Positions 21,078 to 51,885 of a stretch of 55,021 nt of DNA are shown in pieces. How positions within the stretch are numbered: position 1 is the stretch's first letter; every line of letters starts with the position of its first letter. Made by a program: the position numbers and the translations under genes. Location: positions 249,921 to 304,941 of the forward strand of contig NW_014577376.1 of assembly GCF_000485595.1 (NCBI RefSeq), in the 5' to 3' direction. The notes beneath the pieces are model-generated. The model did no database searches, was not told the origin of the DNA, and saw nothing but the letters and a program-made list of their open reading frames with translations. The DNA is from Priapulus caudatus. Taxonomy: Eukaryota > Priapulida > Priapulimorpha > Priapulimorphida > Priapulidae.

Positions 21078-21123
21078 CGATGAGATTCCAGTCATGGAGA
21101 ACATACCCTGCCACCTAACTAGC

Positions 21124-21306
21124 GCACGAAGGGTCGTTGTCGAGGTAACTATCAGATATGTGTTTAGGGTTAGGGTTAGGGTTAGGGTTAGGGTTTTAGG
21201 GTTAGGGTTAGGGTAGGGTTAGGTTAGGGTAGGGACGTAAGGCGTAGCGACATACTGCGCTGACACCGTCGGGTAGCTACATATACGACAAACGACCGCC
21301 TTCACG
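21124..21306. mobile_element. Telomere-repeat fold-back element T1 (9-bp target duplication)
   Basis: The left end GCACGAAGGGTCGTTGTCG and the right end (inverted, CGTGAAGGCGGTCGTTTGTCG with small indels) enclose about 70 bp of TTAGGG repeats (21163-21235). CTAACTAGC occurs directly outside both ends (21115-21123 and 21307-21315). A perfect 9-bp duplication fits Mutator-like or related DNA transposons. Arms and the GGTAACTATC-AGATATG junction match T4 at 30230. Confidence 0.8.
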
Positions 21307-21315
21307 CTAACTAGC

Positions 21316-22428
21316 ACATAGGGTATGAGTCGAATGACGCACTTATGCCATTTTGGAACCAAACACTATAACGGGCAATTTTGCACCGGTTGGTTTCGAC
21401 AACAACTACGGATACAGTCTCGTAACACACACTCAGCACCGAGAAAATGTTTGTTCAAGTTTTCTTGAGTTTCTGTGGCAGAATGCCTCCCAATGGCAGC
21501 ATCACAACGCTGGTTCTATGATTGCAAGCATGGATACTCTCGGTCAAGGATAACACTTCACCGTTGGAACGTACGATATTCCTTCTTAGGAGAAAAAACG
21601 TCTGTGTAATCACAGATTAATCTCTCACACATCATGAAAGAACTTGTTCTAAATCCGGGTTTTTACGTAGACATTCGAAAATTCAAACGGAGGTTAAAAT
21701 TCACAATTTGACAGCCGGTATTTACCTTTTCTTTACACGGCATGAGCTCAGAGTGACTATGGTTTTTTCATGCGAACAACATATAAAGTTATTTATGTTA
21801 TAAATTTCACCAAAAACTACAATGCGACCCCTCAGCTATTATACTTTAGTGCACAAGCAAACTGCTTCGTGACCAACTACCTGCTCTACTCTTCACGCCA
21901 GTGGCACATCGTGACGCCCAAAATTCACAAACTGTTAAATTGTCAGCCAACTAGACACAATTACTCATACAAAACCCTGTATATATATGTTACGGGGTAT
22001 GGCATTCTTGGGCAAATTGTTCTTTGATTACAAGGTAATTGGGGGAGAAAATATAAGCCCCTGTAATTTAAGGTTAGCAACGATGGTAATAACCATGACC
22101 GTAATGTCTCATCTAATAATATCTAATAATAAAAACGACAATGATGATGAGCACGATGGAACAAATACTAGCACGACAAGAAATTACATTCAATGCGAAT
22201 CAATATTAGCAATTTTGCCAGTGGCCGTTGTTCGTTCGCATAAGGGTGGGTGTGCGTCTAGCATTCGTTACTTCATATCGTGGCGAGCACGCTGGACCAA
22301 CGCTATGGCTATTCGTATGTCCTGCACATCCGTGCGCATCGTGTTTTCGTGCGGATTTTTTGTGGGGGCCATTGGCACAAAAATTGCTGCGCGAGTGAGC
22401 TCGACGCAATGAATAGTTAACACGCGTC
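21316..22428. other. Stretch without a recognised gene, up to the assembly gap
   Basis: Open frames up to 141 codons (21987-22412) have ordinary AT-rich composition and no known motif. Nothing else stands out. Confidence 0.45.
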
Positions 22429-22521
22429 NNNNNNNNNNNNNNNNNNNNNNNNNNNNNNNNNNNNNNNNNNNNNNNNNNNNNNNNNNNNNNNNNNNNNNNN
22501 NNNNNNNNNNNNNNNNNNNNN
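22429..22521. other. Assembly gap (93 N)
   Basis: A run of N. The Harbinger pseudogene begins directly after it, so its 5' part may lie in the gap. Confidence 1.
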
Positions 22522-23131
22522 CTCCTGGCGACTACAATACGAAATCGCGGTTCTTCTCCAACATCGCCAGAACCTCATGGAACTGGCACTTCACCAAGTC
22601 CATGTCATCAGCGAAAAAGAGAAAGAGAGAGCGTCAACAGAGTTTGGCCGCCGACCGTGGACTCGGAAGAGCCGACGACAGTTTTGGCCTGTATGGCACC
22701 AGTCCTACTTGTTTGAACTCCGCTAACGAAGACCAGGCCAAGCCTTCAGAACTTCATCGCGGATGCCCCCCGAGATGTTCGACGAGCTGCTAACCAGCAG
22801 TGGGATGTATCGAGGATCACCATAGGCAAATACAACTACAGCACGAGCGGCCCTCGAACCCTGGCCTGAAGTCTTTTGCCTTCACTCTGACGAATCTTGC
22901 TCTGTGGACAAATATCAACTCATTCCGGGTGGGTGGAGCGGGTGCCTCACAACCACCCATATCCCGCTCATCCCAGAAGTGTTACCCAGGCATCATCGAT
23001 GTAGTGTACAAGGATGAGTGATGAATTGCCTTGCTCGGCCCCACCACTACTGAGGAATGCGGCGTGTCCCATATCTGTAACAAGTTCATGGAGAGGTGGA
23101 ACTTCCCCCATACCTGTGTGCACTTGATGGC
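22522..23131 (+). pseudogene. Harbinger (DDE_Tnp_4) transposase fragment, frameshifted
   Basis: Translated pieces in different frames line up with the N-terminal half of Harbinger/HARBI1-type transposases. In order they are: MPPEMFDELL (22763-22792), PGLKSFAFTLTNLALW and NSFRVGG (about 22861-22940), IIDVVYKDE (about 22994-23020) and KFMERWNFPHTC (23082-23117). The family uses a DDE nuclease to move elements that duplicate a 3-bp TWA target. Several frameshifts and stops separate the pieces, and homology ends just before the catalytic core (expected GALDGKH), so the gene is dead and 3'-truncated; the 5' part may be in the gap. The order of blocks makes the family call fairly secure from memory, with no search run. 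A Harbinger-like MITE with TAA duplications is 3 kb downstream. Confidence 0.75.
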
Positions 23132-23195
23132 TGCGCGCTGACTGTGCGCTGGCTGTGCGGTGCATGCGCGGTGCATGTGCGGACCATTCGTTCCG

Positions 23196-23283
23196 TGCGC
23201 TAGCAAAACGCTGTGCTGGATTTTTTAACATGCGCGCCCTGTATATATTCTGTATACGGGCAGCGCGCTAGCAACACGCTGTG
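23196..23283. repeat. Two direct copies of a GCGCTAGCAAAACGCTGTG-like unit
   Basis: Near-identical 20-bp segments at 23196-23216 and 23263-23283 are 67 bp apart. Function unknown. Confidence 0.6.
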
Positions 23284-23484
23284 TATTCGTTGTCAACTCG
23301 CTAGCTTCTCCCAAATCCTGACAAAAGTTGGGCGCACAACGATGCACTGATCTATTTTCCATTTTTTGATTAATTTTCAGTGTGCAGGCCGTGCGTCGTG
23401 TATGTGTGACGGGGGCATAAGGAAAACTGGCTAATGTTGTAATAGGTTAGCTCGATAGCTAGCTACTTTGTCATATAAACAGCC

Positions 23485-23834
23485 CAGATCTGCCAAGGGT
23501 GTTCAACCAGCTTGCTGGAGGTTCAATGAGATTTTTCTGGAGAATGGGTCATTTTGGGAATATAATGCTGGAGGTTCAGAATATTTTTAAACACGACCAG
23601 TTTCTGAATATTTGGCTTTAAAATGTGTATTTGCAGTACATAATATATTCTGTTAGCATTCAAAGAAAATGAGACAAAATTTCATTTTACGGCATAAAAA
23701 CTTTAATTCTTGATCATGAAGTGTTACATACGGTTTATTCTTTCGCGTAAATGCGTGAGAATGCGTAGGTCATGCGGGAGAATGGGTCCAGATGCGTGAG
23801 TCTCCCGCAAAATGCGTGAGACTTGGTAGGTCTG
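23485..23834. mobile_element. MITE with CAGATCTGCCAAG terminal inverted repeats
   Basis: The left end CAGATCTGCCAAG and right end CTTGGTAGGTCTG are 11 of 13 inverted matches. ACAGCC (left) and ATAGCC (right) adjoin the ends, a possible 6-bp target duplication. The right part carries AATGCGTGAGTCTCCCGC-type repeats. No coding capacity; superfamily not certain. Confidence 0.6.
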
Positions 23835-23922
23835 ATAGCCCGACTGCCTAATAGCCTAATAGGGGAAAACATACAAACTTCTACCCTTGCACCACAGAAT
23901 TGTAGCTATAGTCAGGTCCCTT

Positions 23923-23970
23923 AGCTTCATGATCGTTACAGAGCTGACAAAAGCATCAAACTTGGCACAG
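23923..23970. repeat. Inverted repeat, left copy, flanking the BEL/Pao pseudogene
   Basis: CGTTACAGAGCTGACAAAAG...AAACTTGGCACAGTTG matches, inverted, 25976-26022 (CAACTGTGCCAAGTTTGAG...CTCCTGTAACGAT). The pair brackets about 2 kb. Confidence 0.6.
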
Positions 23971-24016
23971 TTGACTGGATAGTTGACAGTTGATTTTGAG
24001 ACTGTTAAGAGAGCGC

Positions 24017-25190
24017 CATTCATGGGAATGACTGCTTGTCAGATGTAGATAAATTCACATATTTGCGAGGACTGGTGGAAGAACCCACAAAATCTGTGAT
24101 TGCGGGGTTCGCATTAACTAGCGCAAATTATCAAGCTGCAGTAGAACTGTTGAAGGAACGATATGGGAAGAAGACTATCATACGAGCGCACGTGAACGAA
24201 CTCCTGAACATTTCACCGGTTTTCAGTGAGATACCGTGCGGCCGAGAGGCTTGTGCGATACAGTCGAAACGCACTATAGAGGATTGAAGGCGTTGGGCCT
24301 CCTGGAAGAAACGTATTCGAGTATAGTTGTCTAGACTGGTGACTGGTCGATGAAGGATATGCTCGAAGCATTAAGAAGAGAAGTAAGACTGCGAGAAGAA
24401 CATCATGTGCAGCCACCACAGAGAGTGAGCCAGAAGGACCGACAGGGAAGAGAGTCAACGACGAGGACAGCTTCCCTGGACAGCGAGTGCCTTGTTCACG
24501 GGACGAGACAGACAATATATGTGCTTTTTTTTGGGAGAGCATGCCCATGAAAATTGTTTTAAGGTTACGGGTGTAAAGGAAAGAAAAGAGCTCCTGCGAA
24601 AATATGCTAGATCTTACAAGTGTAGTATAAGGAAAGGGCATCGCGCCCGAGATTGTCCAGTTGTAGTAAAGTGTAAACGTTGTGGGGAGTGGCAACATAC
24701 GTCGTTGTGTGCTGGAGAAATGCCCAAGTATAATAGAAGGGAGCGGGAATCGGGACCGTTACGGCAACACGTGGGCCGGCAAGTGTGCATGTCGAGACGG
24801 GGGATCGCATGGCTTTTGCAAACTGCCCTGAGAAAGGTCAACGAGAAAGGGAGATTGCTATTTGACTTGGGAGGTCACAAATCATTTATCACGGAATAAA
24901 AACATTCGGTGTAGAATCAAAAGAAACTAGTTTAAGAGATGTAGTTAAGATAGATATAACAGGCCTGCAGGCAGGAAGGGTAGCGGTAAGCATAAGGTGC
25001 TGCAAAGTATTTCTAGATTCGAGGAACCCATTGAGATTGTGGGCGAAAGGCATTCCCGCACTTCGAGAATCTTGGTTTTCAGATGATTATATGTGCATGA
25101 GAGACAGTGGGATGGTGTATTTGTAGGGGCAGCTGTTTAGTGTGGGTTCCAGAATGGTCGTACGAAAAGGAGGAGGAGGCAGAAGCAGCG
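24017..25190 (+). pseudogene. BEL/Pao retrotransposon gag-protease fragment
   Basis: The first frame (24036-24287) carries the DUF1759-type gag signature of BEL/Pao elements, including KFTYLRGLVEEP and NYQAAVELLKERYGK. After a frameshift, the frame ending at 24899 has a degenerate zinc knuckle (SYKCSIRKGHRARDC, first Cys lost and one residue extra), then CKRCGEWQHTSLC, then a protease-like LLFDLGGHKSFITE, in which the expected D-S/T-G reads D-L-G. Similar protease-region sequence continues in other frames to about 25190. Gag packages RNA and the protease matures the polyprotein in such elements. No reverse transcriptase, integrase or LTR was recognised, so this is a 5'-part relic. The order gag, knuckles, protease makes the assignment good. 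Confidence 0.75.
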
Positions 25191-25975
25191 TAGGGTCATA
25201 GGGGCTATGTCGACAGGGGACGGCGGACGTACACTAGGTCGGTCCGTTACCGGAACGTCCTGGGTAACTATCCGTGGGTTATGGATGTTTTTCACGATAG
25301 TGTAGTTTACCAAAATTACGCACGGTATCGCCTATGGCCTAAGTTAGGGATGGTCACGAGTATCGATTTTTCGAGCATCGGTGGAACGTGGTCGACAGCG
25401 CTTGGTTATCATAATCCATATTGATGTCATCGGGGAAAAAGTGAGGAGATCAGAGATATCAGCGCGACGTACAAGTTATCTGTACGAACTACAGGTAGTA
25501 TACACAGTGTAAACGTGCGAAACAAACAGTACGGCGGCGAAGACGCACAGACATGCCACAGTACGTGCGCACGACGTGCGCATACGCGGCTGCAACACCC
25601 CGGTACCGATTGGAACCGTCATCGGGTTCTTGGGTCAACGATGATCGGCATTCGAAGTACACAATTGACAACTGATATTATATACGCGCCATTATGTGCG
25701 GCTTTCGATTTACACATACGCTGTTACGGAATCTCCATTCGCTGGATTTCCCTGAAGCTCCGCCCACTTTAAAAATAGTGCTAGCATTGTGGCAGTGGTA
25801 TCCTGAGTGTACGAAGGTGCACTGCATGCAGTTTGGTATTGGCATTGTATAAAGGCAGGCGCGGTAGGGGGGTTCGGAGTCGGGTGGTTCGAACATTTAA
25901 TCATCTGTAATTCACTTCTAAGGAATATCTGCAGTGGGCACCTGCTCTAATAATTATAGTACTGCCATAAGCTAC
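25191..25975. other. Stretch without a recognised gene
   Basis: Short frames only; no domain, RNA or clear repeat recognised. Confidence 0.45.
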
Positions 25976-26022
25976 AACTGTGCCAAGTTTGAGACTTTTG
26001 TCACTCCTGTAACGATTCGGCC
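25976..26022. repeat. Inverted repeat, right copy, flanking the BEL/Pao pseudogene
   Basis: Inverted partner of 23923-23970. It ends about 15 bp before the Harbinger-like MITE at 26038. Confidence 0.6.
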
Positions 26023-26037
26023 CATATTTTGCACTAA

Positions 26038-26316
26038 GGCCAAAACAAAATAGGTATGTGTTGTTACCGTTACATGCCGAAAAAAATAGGGTAGGTAGGT
26101 AGGTGAAACATTTTATTTTCTTGAAATATTTTATTTACGAACCATGTGACGTCCGAAGGATGTGCGTTGTGCCTTTTGAAGCAGGAACTGTCCAATTCAT
26201 ATTTTTATTTTTTATTTTTTTACTTTAAAGAAAATTGACAATAAAATGTTTAGGGTCGTTGGGAATAAATAGGGTCGGTCGGGAAACCGGAACCACACCT
26301 ATATTTTGTTTTTACC
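26038..26316. mobile_element. Harbinger-like MITE with TAA target duplication
   Basis: The left end GGCCAAAACAAAATAGGTATG pairs with the inverted right end GGTAAAAACAAAATATAGGTG (positions quoted approximately). TAA is present directly outside both ends (26035-26037 and 26317-26319), as expected for the PIF/Harbinger TWA target. The right half, including a GGCC end, recurs at 28115-28240 as part of the tandem duplication. Confidence 0.6.
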
Positions 26317-26842
26317 TAAGGGACCTGGAGGTAGATTCATCAACGCGCGTACGCAAAATCTTTTTCGTAAATCTTGTGTACGCAATCGACGTTGCTTAGT
26401 TGCGATTCATCAACACAGCTATTTAGTAAATTTGCGTACGATTTCGAGTACGCAAGCGAGGCCATTTTAGGTGCGATTCATCAAGCTAAAATTTACGTAA
26501 ACCTTTGCGTAACTTTACATGAGCTGACGAGGTGCCGTAAACCACTCGAAATTTCCGCAAGTGCTTCCAGCATACCGCAGCATGCATTATTTTATTGAGA
26601 AAACATAAAATTACTACTCAACTAAAAATAAATAAATAATTACCATACTACACAGACAGGCGGCACCTTTGACGCTTCTTTTGGCATAGCTTGGCATTGT
26701 TTTCGTTATAAGCGAGTTCGTAGTTAGACGTGTATGTGCATACGCACGCACTTGTATGTGCACACGCACGCACGCACGTGTACGTGCACACGTCCACACG
26801 CACGCGTGCACATAAACGCACGCACGCACGCACGCACACGTG

Positions 26843-27474
26843 CAGTGGCGTAGTTAGGGGGGGGGGGTGCAAAGGGGGCCATGGCCCTCCTGTTGATCCT
26901 AAAGTAAAAAAAAAATTGTCGTAGTCAGAATGAAGGCTGTACATGTACTCAAAAGTGCCTCAAATAACATCTTCTGCTATCTACATTTTCAAAATTTTCT
27001 GGGGGAGGACCACCATACACCTCGCATGTGTTTCGCCCCCTCATCGTAATCATGGATCCGCCACTGAAGCTAAAGGGGTCGTTGTCGTATATATGTACCC
27101 GAGGTACATAAGTGTATACGATGTATACAGAAGTGTAACCTAACCCTAACCCTAACCATAAACACAGGGTACATATATGCTGAGAAGATACAGGTCTGGT
27201 ATACATATACGTACCTCGGGTACATAATATATATGTAGTACCTGATACGACAACGACCCTTCGTGCGCCACTGAACAGTTACATATCTAGGGAGCAGAAA
27301 ACAACGAACACAAATGTCACCTTTTTGCATGGCGCCCAAAACAAAGATTGCAGAGCTGAGCGTAGTGTGTGGAGAGGGAAGCGGAGGAACCATTGCAATA
27401 TTAAGTCATCCACTATTTTGCGCAGTTTGCTGTTTTTGCCCCCCCCCCTGTTAAAAATCCTGGCTACGCCACTG
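26843..27474. mobile_element. hAT-type non-autonomous element, copy 1
   Basis: CAGTGGCGTAGTTAGG and CCTGGCTACGCCACTG are inverted termini of the widespread CAGTGGCGTAG hAT type. CACACGTG (26835-26842) and CACACATG (27475-27482) flank it, an 8-bp target duplication with one mismatch, the usual size for hAT. G-runs and C-runs lie just inside the ends. No transposase. A telomere-repeat element is inserted at 27069. Confidence 0.85.
27069..27266. mobile_element. Telomere-repeat fold-back element T2 (9-bp target duplication)
   Basis: The left end GCTAAAGGGGTCGTTGTCG and inverted right end GCACGAAGGGTCGTTGTCG enclose GTACCCGAGGTAC-bearing arms and CCCTAA repeats (27137-27158). GCCACTGAA flanks both ends (27060-27068 and 27267-27275), a perfect 9-bp duplication. 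Removing the element and one copy restores a continuous hAT sequence. Confidence 0.85.
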
Positions 27475-27851
27475 CACACATGCACATGCACGCACGCACG
27501 CGTACGTATCGCTGCTTTCATCAAGTGTTGAACGCAATCATACAAACGAAAATGAGGACGACTATCACATCCCCCAGCACTCCTGTAGACAGAGCTAGAG
27601 CCATATGGTTTACATACAAAAGAGGCGTCAGTTTGGTTGATAAGGTATGTGTCACACAGAGTGATTGGTTTATACTAGGCACACCCCTCAACAACCAGCA
27701 GCTATGATGGCGTAGTGGATTTACACTGGAATTCATCAACATTTGCGTACGCAGGTGCTACGCTGCGTTGATGAATCGCACCTACGAGCTTTGCGTACGT
27801 ACTTCGTAGAAACTCTGTGTACGCAATACACTTTACGCAACGTTGATGAAT

Positions 27852-28114
27852 ACACTGCGACATTACGGTAATACATCATGGATTGACACGTACGTGATGC
27901 TGTGTGTATATTCCCTCGTTCTATTTATAGATTGTGTACAGATTTTCAAGGTTTCCCTCGCAAAATCACATTTTCGGAGGATACATTTTCTTCCAACGTT
28001 GAGAGGCAGGATACGGAATCATTGTCGATACGTGGTGTATGTTTCACGCCCAGCCATTCCCCCTCCGGAGTTTTTAGCGGAAATGTCTTACTTTAATACT
28101 AATAATAGTATAAA
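27852..28114. other. Spacer between the two duplication copies
   Basis: About 260 bp with no match elsewhere in the window. It separates the altered right end of copy 1 from the poly-T start of copy 2. Confidence 0.6.
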
Positions 28115-28707
28115 TTTTTTTTTTTTTTACTTTAAAGAAAATTGACAATGATACAATTGACAATTGAAATGTTTAGGGTCGCTGGGAATAAATAGGGTCA
28201 GTCGGGAAACCGTAACCACACCTATATTTTGTTTTGGCCTAAGGAACCTGGGGGTAGATTCATCAACGCGCGTACGCAAAATCTTTTTCCTAAATCTTGT
28301 GTACGCAATCGACGTTGCTTAGTTGTGATTCATCAACACAGCTATTTAGTAAATTTATGTACGATTTCGCGTACGCAAGCGAGGCCATTTTAGGTGTGAT
28401 TCATCAAGCTAAAATTTACGTAAACCTTTGCGTAACTTTACACGAGCTGCTGAAGATGTGCCGTAAACCACTCGAAATTTCCGCAAAAAAAGTGTTTCCA
28501 GCATACCGCAGCATGACTACTCAACTAAAAATAAATAAATAATTACCATACTACACAGACAGGCGGCGCCTTTGACGGTTCTTTTGTCATAGCTTGGCAT
28601 TGTTTTCGTTATAAGCGAGTTCGTAGTTAGACGTGTATGTGCACACGCACGCACTTGCACGTGCACACGCACGCACGTGTACGTGCACACGCACGCACGC
28701 ACACGTG

Positions 28708-29359
28708 CAGTGGCGTAGTTAGGGGGGGGGGGTGCAAAGGAAGCCATGGCCCCACTGTTGATCCGAAAGTAAAATAAAATAAAATAATTGTTCTATAAAA
28801 AGAGAATTGTCGTAGTCAGAATGAAGGCTGTACATGTACTCAAAAGTGCCTCAAATAACATCTTCTGCTATCTACATTTTCAAAATTTTCTGGGGGAGGA
28901 CCACCATACACCTCGCATGTGTTTCGCCCCCTTATCGTAATCATGGATCCGCCACTGAAGCTAAAGGGGTTGTTGTCGTATATATGTACCCGAGGTACAT
29001 AAGTGTATACGATGTATACAGAAGTGTAACCTAACCCTAACCCTAAACACAGGGTACATATATGCTGAGAAGATACAGGTCTGGTATACATATACGTACC
29101 TCGGGTACATAATATGTATGTAGTACCAGATACGACAACGACCCTTCGTGCGCCACTGAACAGTTACATATCTAGGGAGCAGAAAACAACGAACACAAAT
29201 GTCACCTTTTTGCATGGCGCCCAAAACAAAGATTGCAGAGCTGAGCGTAGAGTGTGGAGAGGGAAGCGGAGGAACCATTGCAATATTAAGTCATCCACTA
29301 TTTTGCGCAGTTTGCTGTTTTTGCCCCCCCCCCTGTTAAAAATCCTGGTTACGCCACTG
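28708..29359. mobile_element. hAT-type non-autonomous element, copy 2
   Basis: Duplicate of 26843-27474, with the same CAGTGGCGTAG ends and the same CACACGTG/CACACATG flanks (28700-28707, 29360-29367). It has one extra short AAAAT/AAAAG insertion near 28775. Confidence 0.85.
28960..29151. mobile_element. Telomere-repeat fold-back element T3 (duplicate of T2)
   Basis: Same insertion as T2, with GCCACTGAA at 28951-28959 and 29152-29160. The CCCTAA tract (29028-29047) is one repeat unit shorter than in T2, so the tract length has changed since the duplication. Confidence 0.85.
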
Positions 29360-29744
29360 CACACATGCACATGCACGCACGCACGCGTACGTATCGCTGC
29401 TTTCATCAAGTGTTGAACGCAATCATACAAACGAAAATGAGGACGACTATCACATCCCCCAGCACTCCTGTAGACAGAGCTAGAGCCATATGGTTTACAT
29501 ACAAAAGAGGCGTCAGTTTGGTTGATAAGGTATGTGTCACACAGAGTGATTGGTTTATACTAGGCACACCCCTCAACAACCAGCAGCTATGATGGCGTAG
29601 TGGATTTACACTGGAATTCATCAACATTTGCGTACGCAGGTGCTACGCTGCGTTGATGAATCGCACCTACGAGCTTTGCGTACGTACTTCGTAGAAACTC
29701 TGTGTACGCAATACACTTTACGCAACGTTGATGAATCTCGCCCC

Positions 29745-30220
29745 TGAGGCCATCCTTAAAAAATTATATGTTTGCTGTCCTCCGACTGACCCCCGAAAAT
29801 AGCCGCAACCCAAAAGTTTTTTTGACATTTTAGGTTACTTTTTTTCTCTTTTTTTTTACATTCCTCATAGTTAAGACTGAAACACAAAGTATGTGTGGCA
29901 AACATGAGGACAGACTTAAAATAACTATTATGCCTCACAAAAAAAGACCTACCCACTAAAAAAATCATGGGTCGGGGGGGGGGGCAGCAAACAGAATTTA
30001 CTACTACCTGACTACTAGCGGGGTAGGGGACCATGTTCCCCCCTCTTCAGACACTATTTGGTTACACGGACAATAGCCAATGGCGAACTGCCTACGGTGA
30101 ACTGCTCAGGATAAAACAATACGTGGTCGTGACGCTACCCTCCTCCACCCACCGCGTACCCACCCACAAAGTAAAATGAGTTAGCCACGCCAGGGATTAA
30201 GATTGCACTGTGTACACGAC
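29745..30220. other. Stretch without a recognised gene
   Basis: Homopolymer-rich DNA (T runs near 29835-29860, G run near 29975). No gene or clear repeat. Confidence 0.45.
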
Positions 30221-30229
30221 ATCACTGAC

Positions 30230-30549
30230 GCACGAAGGGTCGTTGTCGTATAATGGCGTATAATATGGCTCGTAGGGTCTATGTCCCCCTGACCTCTGTT
30301 TGACCTGACTCGTTTAGCTATTTCCGACTAACCCTAACCCTATATATATTATATATATATATATATATTAGTCAGAAATACCTAAACGAGCCAGGTCAAA
30401 CAGAGGTCTGGGGGACATAGACCGTATCTGATATAATATGTACCCGAGGTAACTATCTGATATGGTTAGGGTTAGGGTTAGGGAGTAGGCGTAGAAGACA
30501 TACTTGCCGACACCTCGGGTACTACATATACGACAACGACCCCTTCAGC
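30230..30549. mobile_element. Telomere-repeat fold-back element T4 (9-bp target duplication)
   Basis: The left end GCACGAAGGGTCGTTGTCG and inverted right end GCTGAAGGGGTCGTTGTCG are intact. ATCACTGAC flanks both (30221-30229 and 30550-30558). The TTAGGG tract is at 30464-30483, joined to the left arm by GGTAACTATCTGATATGG as in T1. A second small element of the same kind is inserted in its left arm (30268-30431). Confidence 0.85.
30268..30431. mobile_element. Nested fold-back element with telomeric core (9-bp target duplication)
   Basis: The arms of about 60 bp run from GCTCGTAGGGTCTATGTC to the inverted match TCAGATACGGTCTATGTC and are almost perfect (GACCTCTGTTTGACCTG / CAGGTCAAACAGAGGTC). 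The loop holds CTAACCCTAACCC and an AT tract. TATAATATG is directly outside both ends (30259-30267 and 30432-30440). This is a recent insertion into T4 by a related mechanism. Confidence 0.8.
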
Positions 30550-30558
30550 ATCACTGAC

Positions 30559-34110: not shown

Positions 34111-34111
34111 C

Positions 34112-34625: not shown

Positions 34626-34676
34626 TAGTTGAACGTTTAATGCAGTTTATATCTATTATAACGGGTGAATAATGAC

Positions 34677-34679
<3 letters not shown>

Positions 34680-34719: not shown

Positions 34720-35297
34720 AGAGTACATAATAGGAGAGAAGAGTATGACACCGTTTTAACAGCGTTTTGCATAGTTTTCAACTTGTAAATATTCTATATG
34801 TGAATAAATATATTCAAATTTACCTTGTTTTCGTCTATGATTCTCCCTTAATCATATGACACCACCAATTTACCTGAAAATCGTATTTGTTCTTCAAAAA
34901 AATCCTTTGAATACGACACGGTTTCAAACAGTTTTCAGGAATGGACGCACGAGTTCGGCCAAAGTTGATATGCACCAGGTTGTAACCAAGATACAAGATA
35001 GAGACAATAGAACACTAATCCCATAATGAACTTTGGACGAACACATGCGTCCATTCGTGAAAACTGTTGGAAACCGTGTTGTATTCAAAGAACTTTTTTG
35101 AAGAACACATACGATTTTCAGGTAAATTGGTGGTGTCATATGATTAAGGGCAAATCATAGACGAAAACAAGGTAAAGTTTGAATATATTTAATTATTTAT
35201 TCACATATTGATAGAATATTTACAAGTTGGAAACTATGCAAAACGCTGTTAAAACGGTGTCATACTCTTCTCCTATTATGTACTCTTGATATATATG
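34680..35297. mobile_element. Fold-back element with about 250-bp arms (TATCAAGAGTACATAATAGG)
   Basis: The left arm (about 34714-34974) and right arm (about 35023-35297) are inverted copies with few mismatches, for example AGTATGACACCGTTTTAACA and its complement. The loop is only about 50 bp. The left end merges into a long TA tract, so a TA target duplication cannot be read. No coding capacity. Confidence 0.8.
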
Positions 35298-35964: not shown

Positions 35965-36493
35965 GCTGAAAGGGTCGTTGTCGTATCAGGTACTACATAT
36001 ATGTACCCGAGGTATACGTATATATGTATACCAGACTTTTATCTTCTCAGCATATATGTAACCTGTCAGGGTTCTGCCCACGGTGGACGGCGGTGGGCGG
36101 GTGTGCCCGGCACTCGCGGGTGTGCCCGGCACTCGCGGTTGCCGCCCGGCACTAATTTTTGATATAAAAAAATAATAAAAAAAAGTCTGATATATGGGCT
36201 TTTTATTGCTCAGAATGCAGGAAAATTCGACAATCAATCAAATCATCGAGTTTCAGACAATCAAAAATTTTCAGGGGGGCATGCCCCCGGACCCCCCTAG
36301 ATTGGCTTCGCGCCTACAAAGTCGCTACAAGGCTTGCATCAAAGTCGCAACTGGATGCGCCCGGCACTAAAAAATCCTGGGCAGAACCCTGCCTGTGTTT
36401 AGGGTTAGGGTTCACTTCTGTAGTACAAGTCTGGTACACTTTGTGTATATAATACATATATGTATTACCTGATACGACAACGACCCCTTCAGC
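35965..36493. mobile_element. Telomere-repeat fold-back element T5 (9-bp target duplication), interrupted
   Basis: The left end GCTGAAAGGGTCGTTGTCG and inverted right end GCTGAAGGGGTCGTTGTCG are flanked by CCAACTAGT on both sides (35956-35964 and 36494-36502). The interior matches T2 in reverse, with a short TTAGGG tract near 36400-36411. A 325-bp hAT-like MITE splits it. Without that insertion the element is about 200 bp, the size of T2. Confidence 0.85.
36067..36391. mobile_element. hAT-like MITE inserted in T5 (CAGGGTTCTGCCCA)
   Basis: A perfect 14-bp terminal inverted repeat, CAGGGTTCTGCCCA / TGGGCAGAACCCTG. CCTGT lies directly outside both ends (36062-36066 and 36392-36396), and the uninterrupted site is seen in T2/T3 (GTACCCTGTGTTTA, inverted there). 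This gives a 5-bp duplication, a size reported for some hAT groups. The core has two copies of GTGTGCCCGGCACTCGCGG and a GGGGGGCATGCCCCCGG motif. Confidence 0.85.
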
Positions 36494-38579: not shown

Positions 38580-38819
38580 GGTTACAGCCATATAGACCGA
38601 AGGTCTGATAGACCAAAGGTTTATTCGAATACGCAGTGGCTACATGTCCGGAATCGGTCGCCTAGCCTCCAGGCTACGCATCCGGACATCCACTGATGCC
38701 GTATTCGAACGTGAATATGCCGCACATCCACTGATGCCACTATAACCCTAACCCTAACCCTAACCCTATCCCTTTGCAATATTCGGTCTATTGGACCTTC
38801 GGTCTATAGGGATGACCCC
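38580..38819. mobile_element. Telomere-repeat fold-back, second design (8-bp target duplication)
   Basis: ATAGACCGAAGGTC near the left end is inverted at the right end. ATCTGGAT lies directly outside both ends (38572-38579 and 38820-38827). Inside, TTCGAATACG...TGTCCGGA and TCCGGACAT...CGTATTCGAA form a second hairpin, followed by CCCTAA repeats (38742-38768) close to the right arm. Confidence 0.75.
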
Positions 38820-39030
38820 ATCTGGATAGTGTGTACACACTGCAAAAATTTGACGCATCTGGTGTGCACCAGTTTGATACCATATCAAATGTGTAGTCTG
38901 TACGGTGTATCGCACTACTCGAGATGGTGCAATCACTTATAGTGATAACTTAAGTGCTAAAATATATACATTGCAATTCTCAATATTCTTACGTGTAGAA
39001 TATACATAATTGGCATTGTATACTAAGTTA

Positions 39031-40242: not shown

Positions 40243-40345
40243 GTTGTGGAAATCAATAGCACAACTCGGTAGCAACCTGCTATGCAGTCACGTGGCATGA
40301 CGAACTGTGATTGGTTGAAGCAATGCCATTGCGATTGGACGAGGA
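40243..40345 (+). repeat. CCAAT-bearing block paralogous to 36731-36825
   Basis: GTGGAAATCAATAGCACA, then CACGTGGCATG, GAACTGTGATTGGTTG and GCGATTGG in the same order as the other copy. Together with the array cores upstream of both, it suggests an old segmental duplication, about 400-450 bp from core to block in each once T5 is removed. Confidence 0.55.
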
Positions 40346-43169: not shown

Positions 43170-43179
43170 AATGGCAAAG

Positions 43180-43668
43180 AGAAATGGTTTATTCCCATTT
43201 CGCCAGTTTCCCGTTTCGCCAGTTTCCCATTTCGCCAGTTTCCCGTTTCGCCAGTTTCCCATTCTGCCATTTCGTCCTATCTCCCGGACCACCCCCTTGT
43301 TCGAGGTGGGTTAAAAGTAGGCCTCTGTAATGAATAAATTATAACGAATCTAGAGATATGGAGTCAACTATTTATTTGAAGAACAAGAAGGCGAAATCGT
43401 ACATATCAAAACATATGGATCATGTACAAGCACCCTAACCCTAACCCTAACCCTAACGACCTAGAAATGACTCAAGGATCAATTTCGTGCAGGGGGTGGA
43501 AGCAACATAAAATATTGGCGAAATGGGAAACTGGCGAAGTGGGAAAATGGCGAAATGGGAAACTGGCGAAATGAGAAAATGGCGAAGTGGGAAAATGGCA
43601 AAATGGGAAACTGGCGAAATGGTTTATGGCAAATGGCAAAGTGGGATTATGGCGAAATGGAGTGACAC
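43180..43668. mobile_element. Telomere-repeat fold-back with TTTCGCCAGTTTCCC tandem arms
   Basis: The left arm has four 16-bp units TTTCGCCAGTTTCCCR (43197-43264). The right arm has the inverted unit GGGAAACTGGCGAAA and variants, about nine times (43513-43668). Between them is a perfect CCCTAA tract (43431-43457). AATGGCAAAG is found at 43170-43179 and 43632-43641, but it could belong to the repeat rather than to a target duplication. The peptide-like repeat frames in the right arm are artefacts. Confidence 0.7.
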
Positions 43669-45900
43669 CAGAGAAATAGCAGCAGTGGCAGCCATATGCC
43701 GACCAATCAATGCTTGAGCTATGTTTATCCAATGCCTGCAGACGTGACCTGTGCACTCGGGGGGGGGGAGGGGCAGAGGAGGTCAGAAGTCAAGGTATTG
43801 CAGCCTCTCTGGCGTAACACCACCGGATCTGCACCTGAGTGTAGGATAGGTTTCTGCTTATTTTAAAAGCATACATACTTTCACTACGCAGTGTTTTAAA
43901 AGTAGCGAGAGGAAAACTCGAGTGCCTATGTGTTGGTCTGCAGGGCCAAGGCAAGCCCTGTAAGTAGTGAGAGGGTAGAGCTCTAGAAGGCTGTGCCCCC
44001 ATCACGGAAGGCCTAGGGTGGGGTTAGGGAGATGCCCCCTTGAAATTGTTAAAAAATGACTTCTCGCCGTGAAGCAGCTTTGATGCACAAATGCTTCCAA
44101 TGCACTTTAATTAGGCCATCTTCGAAAACTAATCAGGAAATTAGCGTGAGGGTTTGGACAATTGCAGGCCTATATATCACGGGGTGTCAAACTAGACGGT
44201 AGTGACAAAATATATGGGAATTTTTTCCCATTAGTTGGCTTCCAATGAAAACGCTGCTACGACTCTCTTAACACATACCACAGGGAACTACTGTTTGAGG
44301 AAGCGTTTCCATGTGTAAAACTGACATTGCTATGCATTTTCTGTCAGGTGTTTGCACCATTTCAAAGCGATGACACCATCAAATGACTCCTTGCGAGAAA
44401 ACCTAACCACAGCTCTGAGACCTTAGAAACAGTAGGTACAGCCACAGGAGAAAGAGACCTGCACCATACGAAATAAGTACACATCTGGAAGTCTTTCCTC
44501 GACAAATCTAATCCAACTACAGATGCACAGAGTGCAAAAATGGCAGGAGTGTGCGGCATGGATACATAGATACATACGGGCAAGCATGCGTGTACGCACA
44601 ACCATGGGAAGGCCATGTCAATGCCGTTTATTAGGAGACATAATTGGATTCAGGTACGTCATGCCAACCATCAACAACTAGGCAGCCCACATTGAAACAA
44701 AATACTTCAATAAGTGGTGCCCAAACAGTTTCTGTTTTGATTTGTGTTAGCTATATAGAATATAGAATATAGGAAAAATATATTATATATGTTCATGTGT
44801 ATTATGTTCGGAAAAATTATAAATAAAACTGCGAAATGCTATTTGTATTTTTTTAATTTCTGCCAACAAAAATGTTTGCGATATCCCCCTTCATGCTAGA
44901 TCAACTAAACGATAAACAATGGCAGGCAAACCAGTTCATTTCAGGAAAGAAAACGAAGGAGAAAAATGCAGAAAGAAGTTTATATTAGAAACTCCCGCTT
45001 AAGGAGGTGTACAACAGTAAGCTGCCACAATTGTTCACCGTTGCACTATTTCGTCTCTAGAAAAGGCTTAGAAGTAAAATTGGTCATGTTGTGTAATTGT
45101 GCCATTCCAGCTAGTGGCGTAGCCATGGTCGCCGGTCGGCCATTTTTGTGTATGAAACGGGATCCGAATACTCTGTAGAAATTTGCATCATAGAGCTGGC
45201 AAAAGTTTTGAGCGAAGCATAAAGCATGAATCTGTAGTTATTTAACATGAATAAAGTTTATGTTGTGTAAGCGAAGTAACAGTGTGAGTATTTTTAATTA
45301 ATATCTGTTCGATGCTTATTCAGGCCTGCTGTCTATGGACGCGATCTACTGTTGTTCACCACCTTAAGTTTACAAGGCATTTCCATGGCTGCCACAATAA
45401 TTTTGCCAATGCCTCGTTTACCGCAGATGTTCGCTATATCGGTTAGCTGCGTCTGGGCACCACGCAAGAGTTTCGAATTAATGACAGTTGTTTGTGTCGA
45501 GCGTTTGGTTACATCAAATGCTCCAGCAAATTATGGAGTATAAAGAAGGTATATAAGCATGAAAAGTAAACAGAAACACTAATTGTATTTTCATACATAT
45601 ATTATTATTTTGTACAAATAACACACAAATATACTACTTGCTGGTGCTAGAAATTCGTGACGTACACAGTTTAAGCATGTTGATAAAATAGCCGACGTTC
45701 AAATATGGATATCAAGGTTCAAGGTACAAAGAGCGGATTCCAGACATATTCCAGTATACTGGTCATTTGCCCGAATGGATAACTTTTATTATTTGGTGTC
45801 TATCAATTAATTTTTTCACAATAGCAAGACATTTGACATATACGTCGGATTCAAATGCAAGTAACAGTACCACTCGATATCCCAATTGTGATTACACCCA
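43669..45900. other. Mostly unique DNA without a recognised gene
   Basis: Short frames only. AGTGGCGTAGCCATGG at 45113 resembles a solitary hAT terminus. A segment at 44633-44712 is shared with 51886-51972. Confidence 0.45.
44633..44712 (+). repeat. Dispersed repeat, copy 1 (ATAATTGGATTCAGGTACG)
   Basis: About 80 bp (TAGGAGACATAATTGGATTC ... CAACAACTAGGCAGCCCA ... AAACAAAATACTTC) recurs in the same orientation at 51886-51972, with small indels. Confidence 0.75.
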
Positions 45901-46259
45901 CAGGATGCGAAATTAACGGGAGTCCGGAGTCAAACACTCCCTGATTTTCTGTTGGACTCTCTGGATTTCGAATCAATATTTCAGGAGTCCGTGTGAGCTC
46001 CCTGAAAATTCTGGCTATACGAACTATTCGTTCAAGACATCGGCTCGTGGAATTGCGTAATTTGTCAGAAAATGTGTCCAAAGGACAACTTTGGCAGACC
46101 GAATGAATCTTCAATAATAAGCACCGCGTTATTGTTAATATCTTTAAGTTTTGAAACTTCAGACTGCGGGACTCCCTCATTTTGCCGTGTACTGCCCTCT
46201 TTTGAGCAGAGAGTACGTTAGGACTCCCCTTGTTCGAAAAAGTTAATTTTTAACCCCTG
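45901..46259. mobile_element. hAT-like MITE, copy 2 (GACTCC family)
   Basis: Same layout as 16833-17182. The left end is CAGGATGCGAAATTAAC and the inverted right end CAGGGGTTAAAAATTAAC, with GAGTCCGGAGTCAAA and ACTCCCTGATTT near the left end and GACTGCGGGACTCCCTC near the right. No clear target duplication. Diverged from copy 1, so old. Confidence 0.75.
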
Positions 46260-46412
46260 CAGAACCCAATCGCGAGCGCTAGTTAACAGGTATTTAATAT
46301 CTTTTATTATAGAGTCATGTTACAATTCATATAATAAAATGAGTTAAATGTTATGGTTACGGTTACGGTAAGGGAAGGTGCCGTTCTACAGATAGTAACA
46401 TCCATATGTACC

Positions 46413-46565
46413 AGGCCCCTCCCCTTGACGTGCGCAAACCGGCGCACGCCCCGGCCCATTTGGAAAACGTCCCCCCCCCCCCGTTCTCAATCGTTGCGCA
46501 CCGTTTAAATTAACTCCGCCCCGATTAAGATTCCACCCAGATAAAGTTTTAGCAGCGCCGGGAAA
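46413..46565 (-). repeat. Dispersed repeat, copy 2, inverted partner of 16150-16303
   Basis: Reverse complement shares TAATTTAAACG, GCAACGATTGA and CCGGTTTGCGCA with copy 1. A C14 run interrupts it. Confidence 0.65.
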
Positions 46566-46712
46566 TCGATGCGTCAAGAATTTCGCCATTCGACCAGGCC
46601 ACCCCCACGCGTGTATTTTACGCGGTACCACTAAATGCGCGAAACGTCAATACACTACGCATCGCTGCTCTGCAGCAAGCACACAATGTACAACCAGTCA
46701 CCCATGTACACA

Positions 46713-46730
46713 AAACCCTAACCCTAACTG
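46713..46730. repeat. Short interstitial telomeric tract
   Basis: AACCCTAACCCTAAC with no obvious fold-back arms; it may be a remnant. Confidence 0.6.
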
Positions 46731-46799
46731 TAAACCGACTCGCTATCTTATATACAAGTGTTTATAGTACCAATACCGTCTATGGTGCTGTGAGCGATT

Positions 46800-46912
46800 T
46801 TACGCAATTAGTGGACGCATAGAAAGAAACACCCCCCGACCCCCTTAATTCTCCCTCCCCGCCTGCCGCCTCCCCCTCCACCTGTTTCAATTTCATCCTG
46901 GGGAGAACCCTG
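46800..46912 (-). repeat. Fragment of the CAGGGTTCTCCCCAGGATG repeat
   Basis: The right-hand end, read inverted, matches the start of the repeat at 15570. The rest is C-rich low-complexity DNA. Confidence 0.5.
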
Positions 46913-47472
46913 TGTACATACAGTTTCCTGTGAGCTAGCGGTAAACATCAATTGGCATAGAAATACATACAACTGCCACATTGGAAAAATGTCAATTTTT
47001 AATATCAATAGAAATATCAATATTAAGGCCACACCACCCCACAGTGGGCACCGTCACGCGCGGAAGCACATGTTCAAAATTCAAGAGTCCCTGGGCACAA
47101 AAATAAGCACCATTTGAGCACACATTTAGTCAAGCAGCAATAGCTAAAAAACCATATGGAATTTTATTTCTGATTCATTTTCCCTGCGCTTTGCATACCA
47201 GCAATTAATGCAGAATGATTCAAGCACTTCCCTTCTTTTTCAGATATCAAAGCTAGTTTTGTTACCACGTAAAATTTTGATTTCCTTCAAATCCTGTCAA
47301 TGAATAAGAAGAAAAAGAAAACAAATAAAGAATACAGCCAAATTCGATCAAATTGTTTTCTGTTTAGCGCAAAATTTCGAAGGGCACTTGGAAATCTAGA
47401 CCGTATTTCCCAATACGGCAAATACGGTCTGAATCCGACCCTGAACAATCATCATAATAGTACTTTCATTTA
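46913..47472. other. Stretch without a recognised gene
   Basis: AT-rich; nothing recognised. Confidence 0.45.
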
Positions 47473-47760
47473 CTCAAATATATCCTTGAATAGCAGAAAT
47501 ATTGCAAAATAATGGAAATTGACGGCCATTTTGGATTTATGCTAATTATGGCGGCCATATTGCATTTTTGCATGTCAGGGAGTGACCCATTCGCATTCTA
47601 ATATAGCTAAATGCATTGCCCATGCCAATAATAATTAAAATAGAAATTTAAATTATTGAAATATGTCCTTGGATAGCAGAGATATTGCAATATCATGGAA
47701 ATTGGCGGCCATTTTAGATTTATGCAAATTATGCAAATTTGCGTAGGATTTCTTAGGACT
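47473..47760 (+). repeat. Two tandem copies of a roughly 184-bp GGCGGCCATTTT unit
   Basis: TATCCTTGAATAGCAGAAAT...GGCCATTTTGGATTTATGC (from 47477) and TGTCCTTGGATAGCAGAGAT...GGCCATTTTAGATTTATGC (from 47661) align over about 85 bp. Confidence 0.7.
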
Positions 47761-49308
47761 TTTAGTATGTTGTTCTGGAGACTTCACTAAAACGCACTGC
47801 AGTGAAACAATTTCTGTTGCTTTTTTTTTTTCATGCTAAAATGCTAAATTTCCTGGACTAATATGCAATATTTCAGTTGGGTATTAAAAAAATAATGAAT
47901 ATGAACCACAAATTTGAATTAAAAAACTTGTTTATACAACACATCAGCATGAACATTTTGTTATTTTGTAAACATTACAACCTGTAATATTTATTGCAAT
48001 GTAACAGTAACAAATATCTCAGCATCAACTGAAACTTGTGAAATGTCATTTACCTTTTAGCAGTTTTGGGATCTGTATGAAATTCCAACAAAAATACGAT
48101 GCCTTTAAAATTGTATGCGTTTTCCACAAGCAGATGTTCCAATTAATGTATAAGCTGTTTTTCTAACTAATAACATTCTAATGTAAATGACCGTTCAAAG
48201 GTTAACGTTTGCACAGTCTTTGTTTTTGTAATACCCTTCCATCTTGGCGTGCTTGTTATTAAAATTTCAAACTAAATCAATGTGGGCACTAAATAAATTA
48301 TTAGTTTTTTACTAGAGACTATTTGTAGTTAACAACATTAGATCACAAGCATACAAACTGTATTCTAGAGGGAGCATGTTATCAGGCGTTGTGTGAATTT
48401 AGAAATACAAAAACGACCGATTCATGCCTTCCCCATCAAATCTAAGAAGTTAACACTTCATTTTCTAAAGGTTTATAAAATGTCGGGGAGGGGGGGGGGT
48501 GAATGGAAAGTTTTACAGTATGTACAAGTGCAACAGTGTTAACAAAACTGTAAGAAAACCCTAATAAGCAAAACAACTTTTTCACACAAACCCTCCCAAT
48601 AATTATAAACACGTGATTTTATAGTACCTATTGCTAATATCGCCTCCGCCCTCCGTATTCGATATTATCCTACAAGGCTACAATCAGCAAAACGGCTTTA
48701 CGGCTAGAGTGCCCAGCTCTAGAAATAGCACCGTGAAAAGTGCCCCAGTTAGCCGGTAGAATAAGGATACGGTCCCTCGCACATGCGCGGTTCTGATGTA
48801 GCCGGTTTAGCTGGTTGGTGCTCCGCAAGCAGTGTGCCAGCGCCGCTCAGTAACAAAGTCCCACAATCAATATCTTGCGCATGACTCATACCAGACCATG
48901 TGACCGACCAGCTGCGCGCCGGCTGATTGGCTAACCAATAAGTACACGTAGTTCACACCGCGCACAAAAGCTGGGCACGCCGCGCTGGCTCGCGTACTAT
49001 TCACGATTCGCACCCGTCCTTATCACGCTGTACTAATCTCTAGACCCGCACACGGCGGTCACATTATTATATACGACGTCCCTTCACACACGGTCCAACC
49101 ACGATGCGGCACAATGACACAAGAAACGCGCGATCACGTCTAGTCTATAGACCTATAGATGGGAACACATAGCACACAGCAATCCACAATTTCAAGGTGC
49201 CCGTCACACGGCGTGGTTCTCTTGTGTATTACAATATTACTACGTAGTTGCATGGGCTTCGTATGGTTTTGGCGTATTATTATTACGCGCGGAATGACTG
49301 TCATCCCC
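47761..49308. other. Stretch without a recognised gene
   Basis: AT-rich to about 48700, then more GC-rich. AATAAGGATACGGTCCC near 48762 resembles the sequence before the small ORF at 31851. A CCAAT/inverted-CCAAT pair (GATTGGCTAACCAAT) lies near 48924. No exon recognised. Confidence 0.45.
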
Positions 49309-49339
49309 CAACGCACGCACGCAGGAACGAACGCATGCA

Positions 49340-49383
<44 letters not shown>

Positions 49384-49487
49384 CACACGCACGCACGCAC
49401 GCACGCACGCACGCACACACGCACGCACGCACGCACGCACACACACATGCACACACGCACACACACACGCGCGCACACACACACTGG
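49309..49487. repeat. CA / CACG microsatellite
   Basis: Blocks of CA and CACG alternate for about 180 bp. Long frames on both strands through it are artefacts. Confidence 0.95.
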
Positions 49488-50189
49488 CCGCCTCCGTATT
49501 TAATGGCATTCGTGCAACCGGGCCGGGCAGCACTACGACCTTTCAGCCCTCAACCCCCGGCCTTCCGCTTTAGCTATCGACACGCAAACCGTGGCTTGAC
49601 CCGTGTACTTCACACATGTCACGGCTGGTGGTCACTGGCAGTACGGTACACACATCCGGAGTCCGTAACGCCTGCCAAGTTTCAAAAACAACAACCAGCG
49701 GCATGAATTTGCGTGCCATTCGTTTCTTGCTGGTTTTTGTCGTTAGACTGATATATCCGTTATAAGTCCCCGTTATTATCTTGCACCGGGTCGATGCAAC
49801 GATTTTATGCCATTAGTCAAGGTCACTGTCCCTTTTCTTGGTGGAACAAGTTCATTTCATTTGTTAAAAACCTTTTCGGTCTTACTCTTGCAGAAAGTAA
49901 ACTACAGCAACCGTATACAAAGGATAGTACGCTACACTGTGACGTACAGTATTGATTTCCTCAAGAGAAGTGGCCATCTGTTTGCGTTTTGCTCTAGAGA
50001 CGGAATTGTCCATCGCCTCGGGAGCGAGTTTTAGCAGCACTACAATTTTTGTTCGTAACACCAAAGAAATTTCAGCTAAATAATTTTATGTAGATTTTTG
50101 CCTTTTGCGTATCCCAAAAAAAATCACGACAAACTAATGACATCCCAGCACTGATATAAACGTACGACCAAAAAATTCGTACAAAACAA
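49488..50189. other. Stretch without a recognised gene
   Basis: Short frames only; nothing recognised. Confidence 0.45.
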
Positions 50190-50393
50190 ACAAGTTTTGC
50201 TCATATAGTCTATGTCTCTCTGGGTACTGCTGGAACGTACCCTGGGTACGGTCCGGTATACCGGAACAAACCCTGGTAACTATCTGATATGGTTAGGGTT
50301 AGGGCAAAGAGCTTATAATGATCAATATAATTTATAAGCTCTTTGGTTAGGGTTAGGGTTAGGGAGTAGGCGTAGGCGACTCCCTAGACTCGC

Positions 50394-51493
50394 TACGTTA
50401 AAGGGGCCGTTGTCGTATCAGGTACTACAAATATGTACCCGAGGTACATAATATGTGATACACAAGGTACCAGAACTTGTACTACAGAAGTTGTAGCCTA
50501 ACCTAACACTAACCCTACCCGTAACCATAAAGCATACCTCACTATACATGGAAAAGCGTGTCAATGACACTGTAGGCTCACCACAAAAAAAAAGACACAA
50601 ATAGTGAGTGAGTAGTCAGTTTTTAATATTGCAGCAAGCCATCGATGTACATATATAGGATAACGAAGAGGTATATATTGGGAGAACTCCGCATTATATA
50701 CTCTTGATAATGTATATGTTGTAATTTTCTTTTATGTGAAAATAATAAATAATATTATCATATAAATAATAAATAATTTTTATAAACCAAAAAATGAATC
50801 AGCAATTTGTGACGGTAAAGTACCCTGGCGCTATACCCACCTTTGATGTTCTTGAGCATAAATCATTATATTCATAATAAATAATAACAAAATATAAGTG
50901 CAATATATAGCTAAAATCATAATAAATGTTCAGCGGGAGGGATGGTTTGCATTAAAGATATGTCACATAAAATCTTGTAAAACGAAAACAGATGAGTGTG
51001 ACACCTGGACAGAAACTGTTGTTATTCTGGCGTGTCCTATAATAACTATTCCTAATAACTGTGCCAATGTTGCAATAAATTTTTTTTTAGAAAATATTCA
51101 AAACCCCTAGCCCTATTCATTCACATACCAAAAATGAGCAAATCCGTTGAACTCTGTAAAACTGACTAAATAACAATTCCCATTTTTGCCAAAAAATTGC
51201 CGTGCTCGAAAAGTACGTCGACCTGCGTGGCTCCAAAATAACGTTTAATTGGAGTCATAGCAGTAACAACTAGTACCCAATTTCAAACATGTGGTCAAAC
51301 GGTTCCTGGGTTATCCGTTGACCGTAGCGCAAATAGGTCTGACGGACGGACGGACCGACGGACGTTACGACGACCCATGCAATAGCTCAGATTTGAAGAT
51401 GGCCAAGTGAGTTAAAATTATAAACATAATATCTTAAACAACCTAAAAAACTAACCTCGGTACATATCTGTAGTACCTTGATACGACAACGAC
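50394..51493. mobile_element. T2-like arms around a 900-bp insertion (T6)
   Basis: The left arm (GGGGCCGTTGTCGTATCAGG, TACCCGAGGTACAT, then degenerate CCTAA repeats near 50490-50520) matches T2/T5. The right arm (GTACCTTGATACGACAACG, ACCC) is at 51473-51493. The middle, about 50545-51440, is unrelated and presumably inserted. No 9-bp duplication was found at the ends. Confidence 0.5.
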
Positions 51494-51519
51494 CCATCTG
51501 CGTTAGTGTTGTAGCGAGC

Positions 51520-51557
51520 GGGGGGGGGGGGGGGGGGGTTTTTTTTTTTTTTTTTTT
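51520..51557. repeat. G19 run followed directly by T19
   Basis: Nineteen G then nineteen T. True lengths are doubtful because homopolymers are poorly sequenced. Confidence 0.8.
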
Positions 51558-51885
51558 GTTTGTCATGTGGATATTCGGCGAGTCCCGGGCGTGGCGAGGT
51601 AGATAGTTACCAGGGTAGTCTCCGCAGTTAACCAGGGGAGACATAGACCTCTTCAGCACAAGCTGTTCAAGTGTAAGTTGCATTATATAAACATTCCAGA
51701 TGCAAATGCAACTGCTGATAGTTGAATACAGTCAAATCTATTTCAGGACACCCCCCACAATCCATAAGAATCAGGTTATGGTTAAGATGATGACGATGGT
51801 GATACACGAACGAACGCAGTACCAAAACGTACGCACACCAAGTATAAAGCAATCGAACCACGTCCGGTCTATAACACTGTTTACT

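Follow-up and report, generated by a model that had tools for sequence, protein, structure and literature searches.

Small transposon-like elements with telomeric TTAGGG cores in the genome of Priapulus caudatus

Interstitial telomeric DNA is usually read as the scar of a chromosome break or fusion. In a 55,021-nucleotide stretch of the genome of the priapulid Priapulus caudatus (hereafter the window; contig NW_014577376.1, C316:249921-304941 in the 385.2-Mb assembly of 2952 contigs), tracts of TTAGGG repeats instead form the cores of small elements that are bounded by inverted repeats and flanked by short target duplications, and one family of these elements, family A, is repeated hundreds of times in the assembly with the same ends and the same target preference. 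On balance, we think that these are probably internally deleted transposons that were sealed by telomeric repeats and then copied by a Mutator-like transposase acting in trans. Under this explanation, the elements would be short DNA transposons without coding sequence and with inverted repeats at their ends, moved by a transposase supplied from elsewhere that leaves 9-bp target duplications and, in family A, prefers sites of the form NNN-A-C/G-T-NNN. A longer element would have lost its interior, with the deletion sealed by telomeric repeats as in telomerase-assisted break repair, and transposition would then have dispersed copies of the sealed element together with its core across the genome. 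Several unrelated element families would have undergone events of this sort.

Within the window, TTAGGGTTAGGG is found 25 times with up to one mismatch, where 0.18 occurrences are expected from shuffling, and the 15-bp end motif is found 12 times with up to three mismatches, against 1.0 expected and with none of 100 shuffles attaining 12. When runs of at least three of any 5-8-bp unit are collected, TTAGGG accounts for 43 positions and AAAAT, the sole other unit, for 4. A sequence-only reading of the window had listed elements that carry the ends GC..GGGTCGTTGTCGTAT (type A) or GC..GGGTCTATGTCC (type B) around telomeric cores, five of them with perfect 9-bp duplications, and we recover all of these elements and all five duplications. 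The family A element at 21124..21306 (+ strand, alpha type) has its TTAGGG core at 21164-21234 and the duplication CTAACTAGC at 21115-21123 and 21307-21315. A second one, at 27069..27266 (- strand; CCCTAA core at 27139-27157), has GCCACTGAA on either side, and the element at 28960..29151 (- strand), also flanked by GCCACTGAA, is, as proposed, a copy of it in which the flanks were copied too (95.4% identity over 216 bp). Both elements lie in a segmental duplication that joins about 26.7-27.9 kb and 28.6-29.7 kb of the window. Another alpha-type element, at 30230..30549 (+ strand; core at 30464-30483; duplication ATCACTGAC), contains a B-type element at 30268..30431 (- strand; 15-bp CCCTAA tract at 30328-30342; duplication TATAATATG), the right end of which is altered relative to that of L102. 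The family A element at 35965..36493 (+ strand; core at 36399-36412; duplication CCAACTAGT) holds an unrelated nested insert at 36067..36391, with no strand assigned, that has CAGGGTTCTGCCCA ends, which we take to be hAT-like, and the 5-bp sequence CCTGT on both sides.

The remaining copies are composite or incomplete. A B-type element at 50199..51657 (+ strand; TTAGGG core at 50291-50364) is bordered by a duplication with two mismatches (ACAAGTTTT/ACAAGCTGT), and nested in its core is a family A element at 50398..51501 (+ strand), with GTTAGTGTT after the right end and a degenerate left end that makes its start approximate. A small palindrome at 50305-50345 interrupts the telomeric tract of the 50199 element. 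The copy at 52062..52149 (+ strand), which had been described as partial and without a tract, is a B-type element reduced to its left half, the truncation falling at the point where a telomeric tract would start. Two further tract-bearing inverted-repeat structures, absent from the sequence-only reading, have ends other than those of families A and B: an element at 38580..38819 (- strand), of which one copy was seen, with a CCCTAA tract at 38743-38768 between inverted ATAGACCGAAGG arms and an 8-bp duplication, ATCTGGAT; and a fold-back structure at 43192..43663 (- strand), in which inverted arms of a 16-bp satellite surround a CCCTAA tract at 43432-43457 and no clear duplication is seen.

Across the assembly, the exact 15-mer end GGGTCGTTGTCGTAT occurs 548 times forward and 545 times in reverse, as against 3 and 0 for the reversed pattern. 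From the matches listed we took 30 loci in contig order, selected by this end only and blind to TTAGGG, and these yield 17 distinct paired elements, 7 single ends and 6 second ends (two of the loci, L132 and L133, resemble each other in ends and flanks, perhaps as copies of a single insertion). It had been argued beforehand that the family would not be a carrier of telomeric repeats if copies elsewhere lacked the duplications or the tracts. In this sample, 12 of the 17 paired elements have a 9-bp duplication (10 perfect, two with one mismatch) and 15 have a telomeric tract of at least 12 bp, those falling short being L121, with two scattered units, and L124, with none; a tract also lies within 400 bp of five of the seven single ends. 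The duplications are alike in composition: the fourth base is A and the sixth is T in all 16 rows compared, which take in the duplicated-locus pair 27069/28960, and an A-C/G-T (AST) centre is present in 18 of 19 family A duplications, with a window background of 2.9%. The list of 19 omits 28960 and five poorly matched elements (L111, L121, L125, L132 and L133); it includes two one-mismatch cases, as well as E1 and L105, which have an identical 9-mer at different places. Such a preference for AST-centred targets is what one transposase would give. As in a DNA transposon, family A copies are dispersed, end in inverted repeats and mostly lie between target duplications of constant length, and the nested copies add partial evidence of insertion into previously empty sites. 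For this family, the idea that the tracts travel as cargo of a DNA-transposon-like element is supported genome-wide.

How the tract came to lie inside family A is suggested by longer versions of its arms, of which we found seven at five places (L087, L119, the left arm of L124, and both arms of L137 and L141). These inner arms continue ..CCCTGTGTTTACATAAACGTACCTGCCCC.., with small variants, and CATAAACGTACC follows GTTTA or a variant of it. In the short elements 28960 and 35965, the arm is the same as in the longer form up to CCTGTGTTTA and then gives way to GGGTTAGGG, so that in the arm of 28960 CCCTGTGTTTA passes directly into GGGTTAGGG. At the point where the longer arms continue, 28960 and 35965 have TGTGTTTAGGGTTAGGG and 27069 has TGTGTTTATGGTTAGGG, with TTTATGGTTAGGG at its junction. 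The tract starts exactly where the shared arm stops, and the arm's TTA is in phase with the TTAGGG repeat. In the assembly, the inner arm is found uncut 47 times (26+21) and the sealed junction 11 times on 11 contigs, the window among them; one and the same junction on 11 contigs, of which the flanks were read for the window copy only, fits a single event followed by copying. At four of the five longer-arm places there is no tract within 700 bp inward where the sequence was read, two of them having gaps. We infer that the longer form may be the older one and that the family A tract would mark an internal deletion sealed by telomeric repeats, presumably with telomerase as the agent, in line with the break-repair insertion of TTAGGG that passages of one study describe for primates, rodents and horse (PMC7215372).

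Telomeric tracts in general were approached from a second sample. In the assembly, TTAGGGTTAGGGTTAGGG has 4479 and 4536 (overlapping) occurrences on the two strands, the reversed control having 0 and 2, and 43 tract clusters of at least three units lie in about 4.4 Mb among the matches listed. We took the surroundings of all places on C1, C2 and the first 775 kb of C3 among the (TTAGGG) matches listed, which gave 45 tracts from 35 loci (L072-L106); together with six from the window they form a set of 51, each at least 18 bp of perfect repeat, that underlies all counts of inverted arms, strict duplications, library matches and tract contexts. Below the 18-bp limit, and outside the set, are the 35965 element (14 bp), an element in L102 (17 bp) and a tract at 46714 (15 bp), while L101 contains one element twice. 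Inverted arms span 36 of the 51 tracts with scores above the 95th percentile (31.9) of 143 random points in the same sequence, L106 only barely so (32 versus 31.9), and scores above 45 are reached by 27 of 51 tracts versus 6 of 143 control points. A strict test, which demands an 8-10-bp duplication without mismatch and agreement at 12 of 16 end bases, fires at 14 of 51 tracts versus 16 of 400 control points, the latter from 8 places. By hand we added nine elements that are larger, less regular at their ends or carry one mismatch (21164, 38743, L072, L073, L079, L080 at 3740, L081, L091 and L097, with one mismatch in L073 and L080), bringing the tracts in duplication-flanked elements to 23 of 51, a figure without a matched control. 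When the window was scanned blind to TTAGGG, four inverted-repeat elements with a duplication emerged, three of them with a tract; ten shuffles gave at most one. Folding results are mixed: a 150-base piece of one family A element barely beats its shuffles, 32 of 200 being at least as stable, and two other types fold strongly, so that the term 'fold-back' fits only some of the element types.

The elements had been taken for a single family, which holds for family A and is too narrow for the rest, given about a dozen kinds of ends. A perfect 8-10-bp duplication around a telomeric core is found with twelve end types (A-F and H-M), and with one mismatch in type G (GCGTGATTTTTTTTCC); its length is 9 bp in A and B and 8-10 bp in the others. 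Six types, namely A, B, C (GGCGCAAATCCACTTTAGG), D (GGGTGATACTTCATTAGGAG), G and H (GCAACCGGCAGTTAGATGCG), are seen in at least two copies, and one copy each was found of E (GCGGAATTTTTTTTCCCACGAG), F (GGGAAATGCTATCCCCCGGG), I (GGCTGTTGCTCCTGCAACGG), J (GGCAGTGGCTACGGGTACGG), K (GCACGGTCTTCGATTTCC), L (window 38580-38819) and M (L102). The outermost ends of types A and B may be related to each other, and GCG..TTTTTTTTCC is common to E and G. The orientation and position of the tract differ between types. Some cores recur beneath unlike sequence: A-alpha and B have in common CTATCTGATATG-(GTTAGGG)n-AGTAGGCGTAGGCGAC between different arms, and G and I have one core beneath different ends. When the sequence adjoining the 51 tracts is grouped by single linkage at E 1e-3, 13 unconnected contexts result, three of which are L089, L093 and L106, and nesting chains several end types into one context. 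In L073, L095, L104, L082 and L083, a common AT-rich core with a stretch that to the eye resembles a transfer RNA (tRNA) lies beneath different ends; a tRNA in the core of types G and I was rejected, as ARAGORN found none in nine loci.

The sharing of cores could also be explained if one or a few cores grew as ordinary microsatellites within an element and later passed from family to family through nested insertion, recombination or exchange of ends. The cores that A-alpha and B, and G and I, carry beneath unlike arms or ends would fit such a history, as would the nesting seen in 50199, 30230, L087, L138 and L139. The 13 unconnected contexts beside the tracts speak against it, though chaining lumps several types there, and no other 5-8-bp unit behaves like TTAGGG in the window; we regard it as possible, if doubtful. 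It is unlikely, in our view, that the tract is a working part, such as a landing site for telomere proteins or a replication barrier that aids movement, gained and kept by selection. Its recurrence between several unalike ends and its retention in most family A copies could be taken that way, but recent shared descent also explains the retention, tract orientation and position vary among types, and perfect 9-bp duplications border both L124, which has no tract, and L137, which has none where read and a gap at its centre.

A much lower probability attaches to the view that these are ordinary interstitial telomeric sequences, left by break repair or fusion and only by chance near inverted repeats. 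Insertion of TTAGGG during break repair has precedent in the mammals described in the passages of PMC7215372, and a few tracts could be of this kind. The element library has no match for L078, L088, L090, L092, L093 and L106, and L089 has just a 47-bp match to the 35965 element, which we left uncounted. Among these, L088 and L090 possess inverted arms and L078 and L092 link to other tracts by adjoining sequence, which leaves L089 and L093 with neither arms nor a clear match, L106 as borderline, and in the window the 15-bp tract at 46714-46728, placed in no element. For family A, however, such an origin is contradicted: its duplications lie outside the arms and not beside the tract, copies with the same ends and target preference number in the hundreds, and a tract at a break without the hallmarks of a mobile element is not what is seen there. 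The arms that span most of the sampled tracts weigh in the same direction. Hardly credible is the reverse order of events, in which tracts came first and elements inserted into or beside them. The palindrome within the tract of the 50199 element is an insertion of that sort, but family A targets are non-telomeric AST-centred 9-mers and its tract lies inside the ends, which contradicts this order for the family.

The reading that we prefer, internal deletion sealed by telomeric repeats followed by transposition, has its own difficulties, however. Seven of the 13 end types are single copies, and one or two of these may be due to chance, given that 4% of control points pass the strict test. The cores common to A-alpha and B and to G and I imply that some cores were passed on and not newly acquired. 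In type C each arm contains the tract, inverted relative to the other, an arrangement not expected from one sealed deletion. The cut point was read from three window elements of one subfamily, two of which are the duplicated pair, and at one longer-arm place, L087 (the same as L109), a tract is indeed present about 120 bp inward, within another inverted repeat. That repeat, at L087 3343-3663, has GCGGGCGAGTTTTTAAACCGTAGG arms and its own telomeric tract and lies inside the longer-arm family A copy. L124, and more broadly the two of 17 paired elements without a 12-bp tract, indicate that the tract is unnecessary for movement, and duplication-flanked inverted-repeat elements free of tracts exist, at 34860-35135 in the window and in other fetched loci. 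Finally, we found no transposase in elements with family A ends, the interiors of which are gapped or part-read, and although PF10551 has 46 matches in the assembly, several in open frames of at least 300 residues, none of these places falls within the five long-distance pairs of family A ends.

The identity of the mover was also part of the sequence-only reading, which had proposed a Mutator or Rehavkus system; the 9-bp duplication and minisatellite arms agree with this. Three interiors that were fetched yielded no autonomous partner; the pieces of 1.8 kb and 2.0 kb from the C116 and C30 pairs contain no convincing coding sequence, and in the window none of ten open reading frames has a Pfam match and ARAGORN finds no tRNA. 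In the long family A relatives L137 and L141, an assembly gap lies between inverted arms of GGA-rich minisatellite. In the passages available, Mutator-like elements (MULEs) make duplications of 8-11 bp, and Rehavkus is described with a 9-bp duplication, ends of 26-400 bp, a minisatellite before the 3' end and hosts in Arthropoda and Annelida (PMC6446971). The duplications fall in the first range, and L137 and L141 have minisatellite beside the terminal repeat, which favours Rehavkus without proving it; we take a transposase of the Mutator-like class to be the best candidate for the mover. Rehavkus differs in having a PHD-finger transposase, while no coding interior was recovered here. Non-autonomous MULEs share the inverted ends and the duplication, and MULE domains are present in the genome, but the string 'telomer' does not occur in the passages of PMC6446971 and PMC13359780, and no transposase was found with these ends. 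An apparent link to viral contigs was dismissed: the end 15-mer occurs in 71 stretches, yet the matches to elements are only 23-28 bp long and were taken as chance. So was a 24-bp identity between window 51475-51498 and five viral contigs (L002, L022, L028, L050 and L054).

Foldback elements, such as Drosophila FB and sea-urchin TU, consist of a loop between long inverted arms that are in part tandem repeats, and resemble the elements described here in that layout; they differ in that the loop here is telomeric and the end types are several and unrelated. Short interstitial telomeric sequences, of which the passages of PMC7215372 report 229 loci in human (at least four units) and 142 in horse, are likewise short (TTAGGG)n runs inside chromosomes, and are there explained by break repair, whereas in P. 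caudatus the 43 clusters (at least three units) in about 4.4 Mb lie mostly between inverted arms. Telomere-associated Penelope-like elements are transposable elements with TTAGGG copies as well; according to the passages of PMC4522978, however, they are retroelements near chromosome ends with one to three units at the 3' end, while those described here are DNA elements with a central tract and with a target duplication beyond their ends. Telomeric cores in miniature inverted-repeat transposable elements or foldback elements are not mentioned in the titles and abstract openings searched, a partial coverage of the literature, which is weak evidence that the telomeric core, as an oddity common to several families of small transposons, is new.

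Our results suggest that telomere DNA can be acquired by transposons and dispersed with them. As inverted arms enclose the majority of the tracts sampled, and many tracts are inside transposons, telomere probes, fragile sites and maps of ancient fusions could be misread in genomes of this kind. Furthermore, the cut point in family A opens the debated origin of short non-autonomous transposons to testing, through comparison of long with telomere-sealed copies. A more speculative and rather improbable extension is that in this lineage the telomeric sealing of failed transposon repair is a main birth route of non-autonomous transposons and the source of most interstitial telomeric DNA, with gaps left by excision or copying being capped with TTAGGG, rescuing a short two-ended element that then spreads. 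If this were so, telomere maintenance would itself generate new families of elements.

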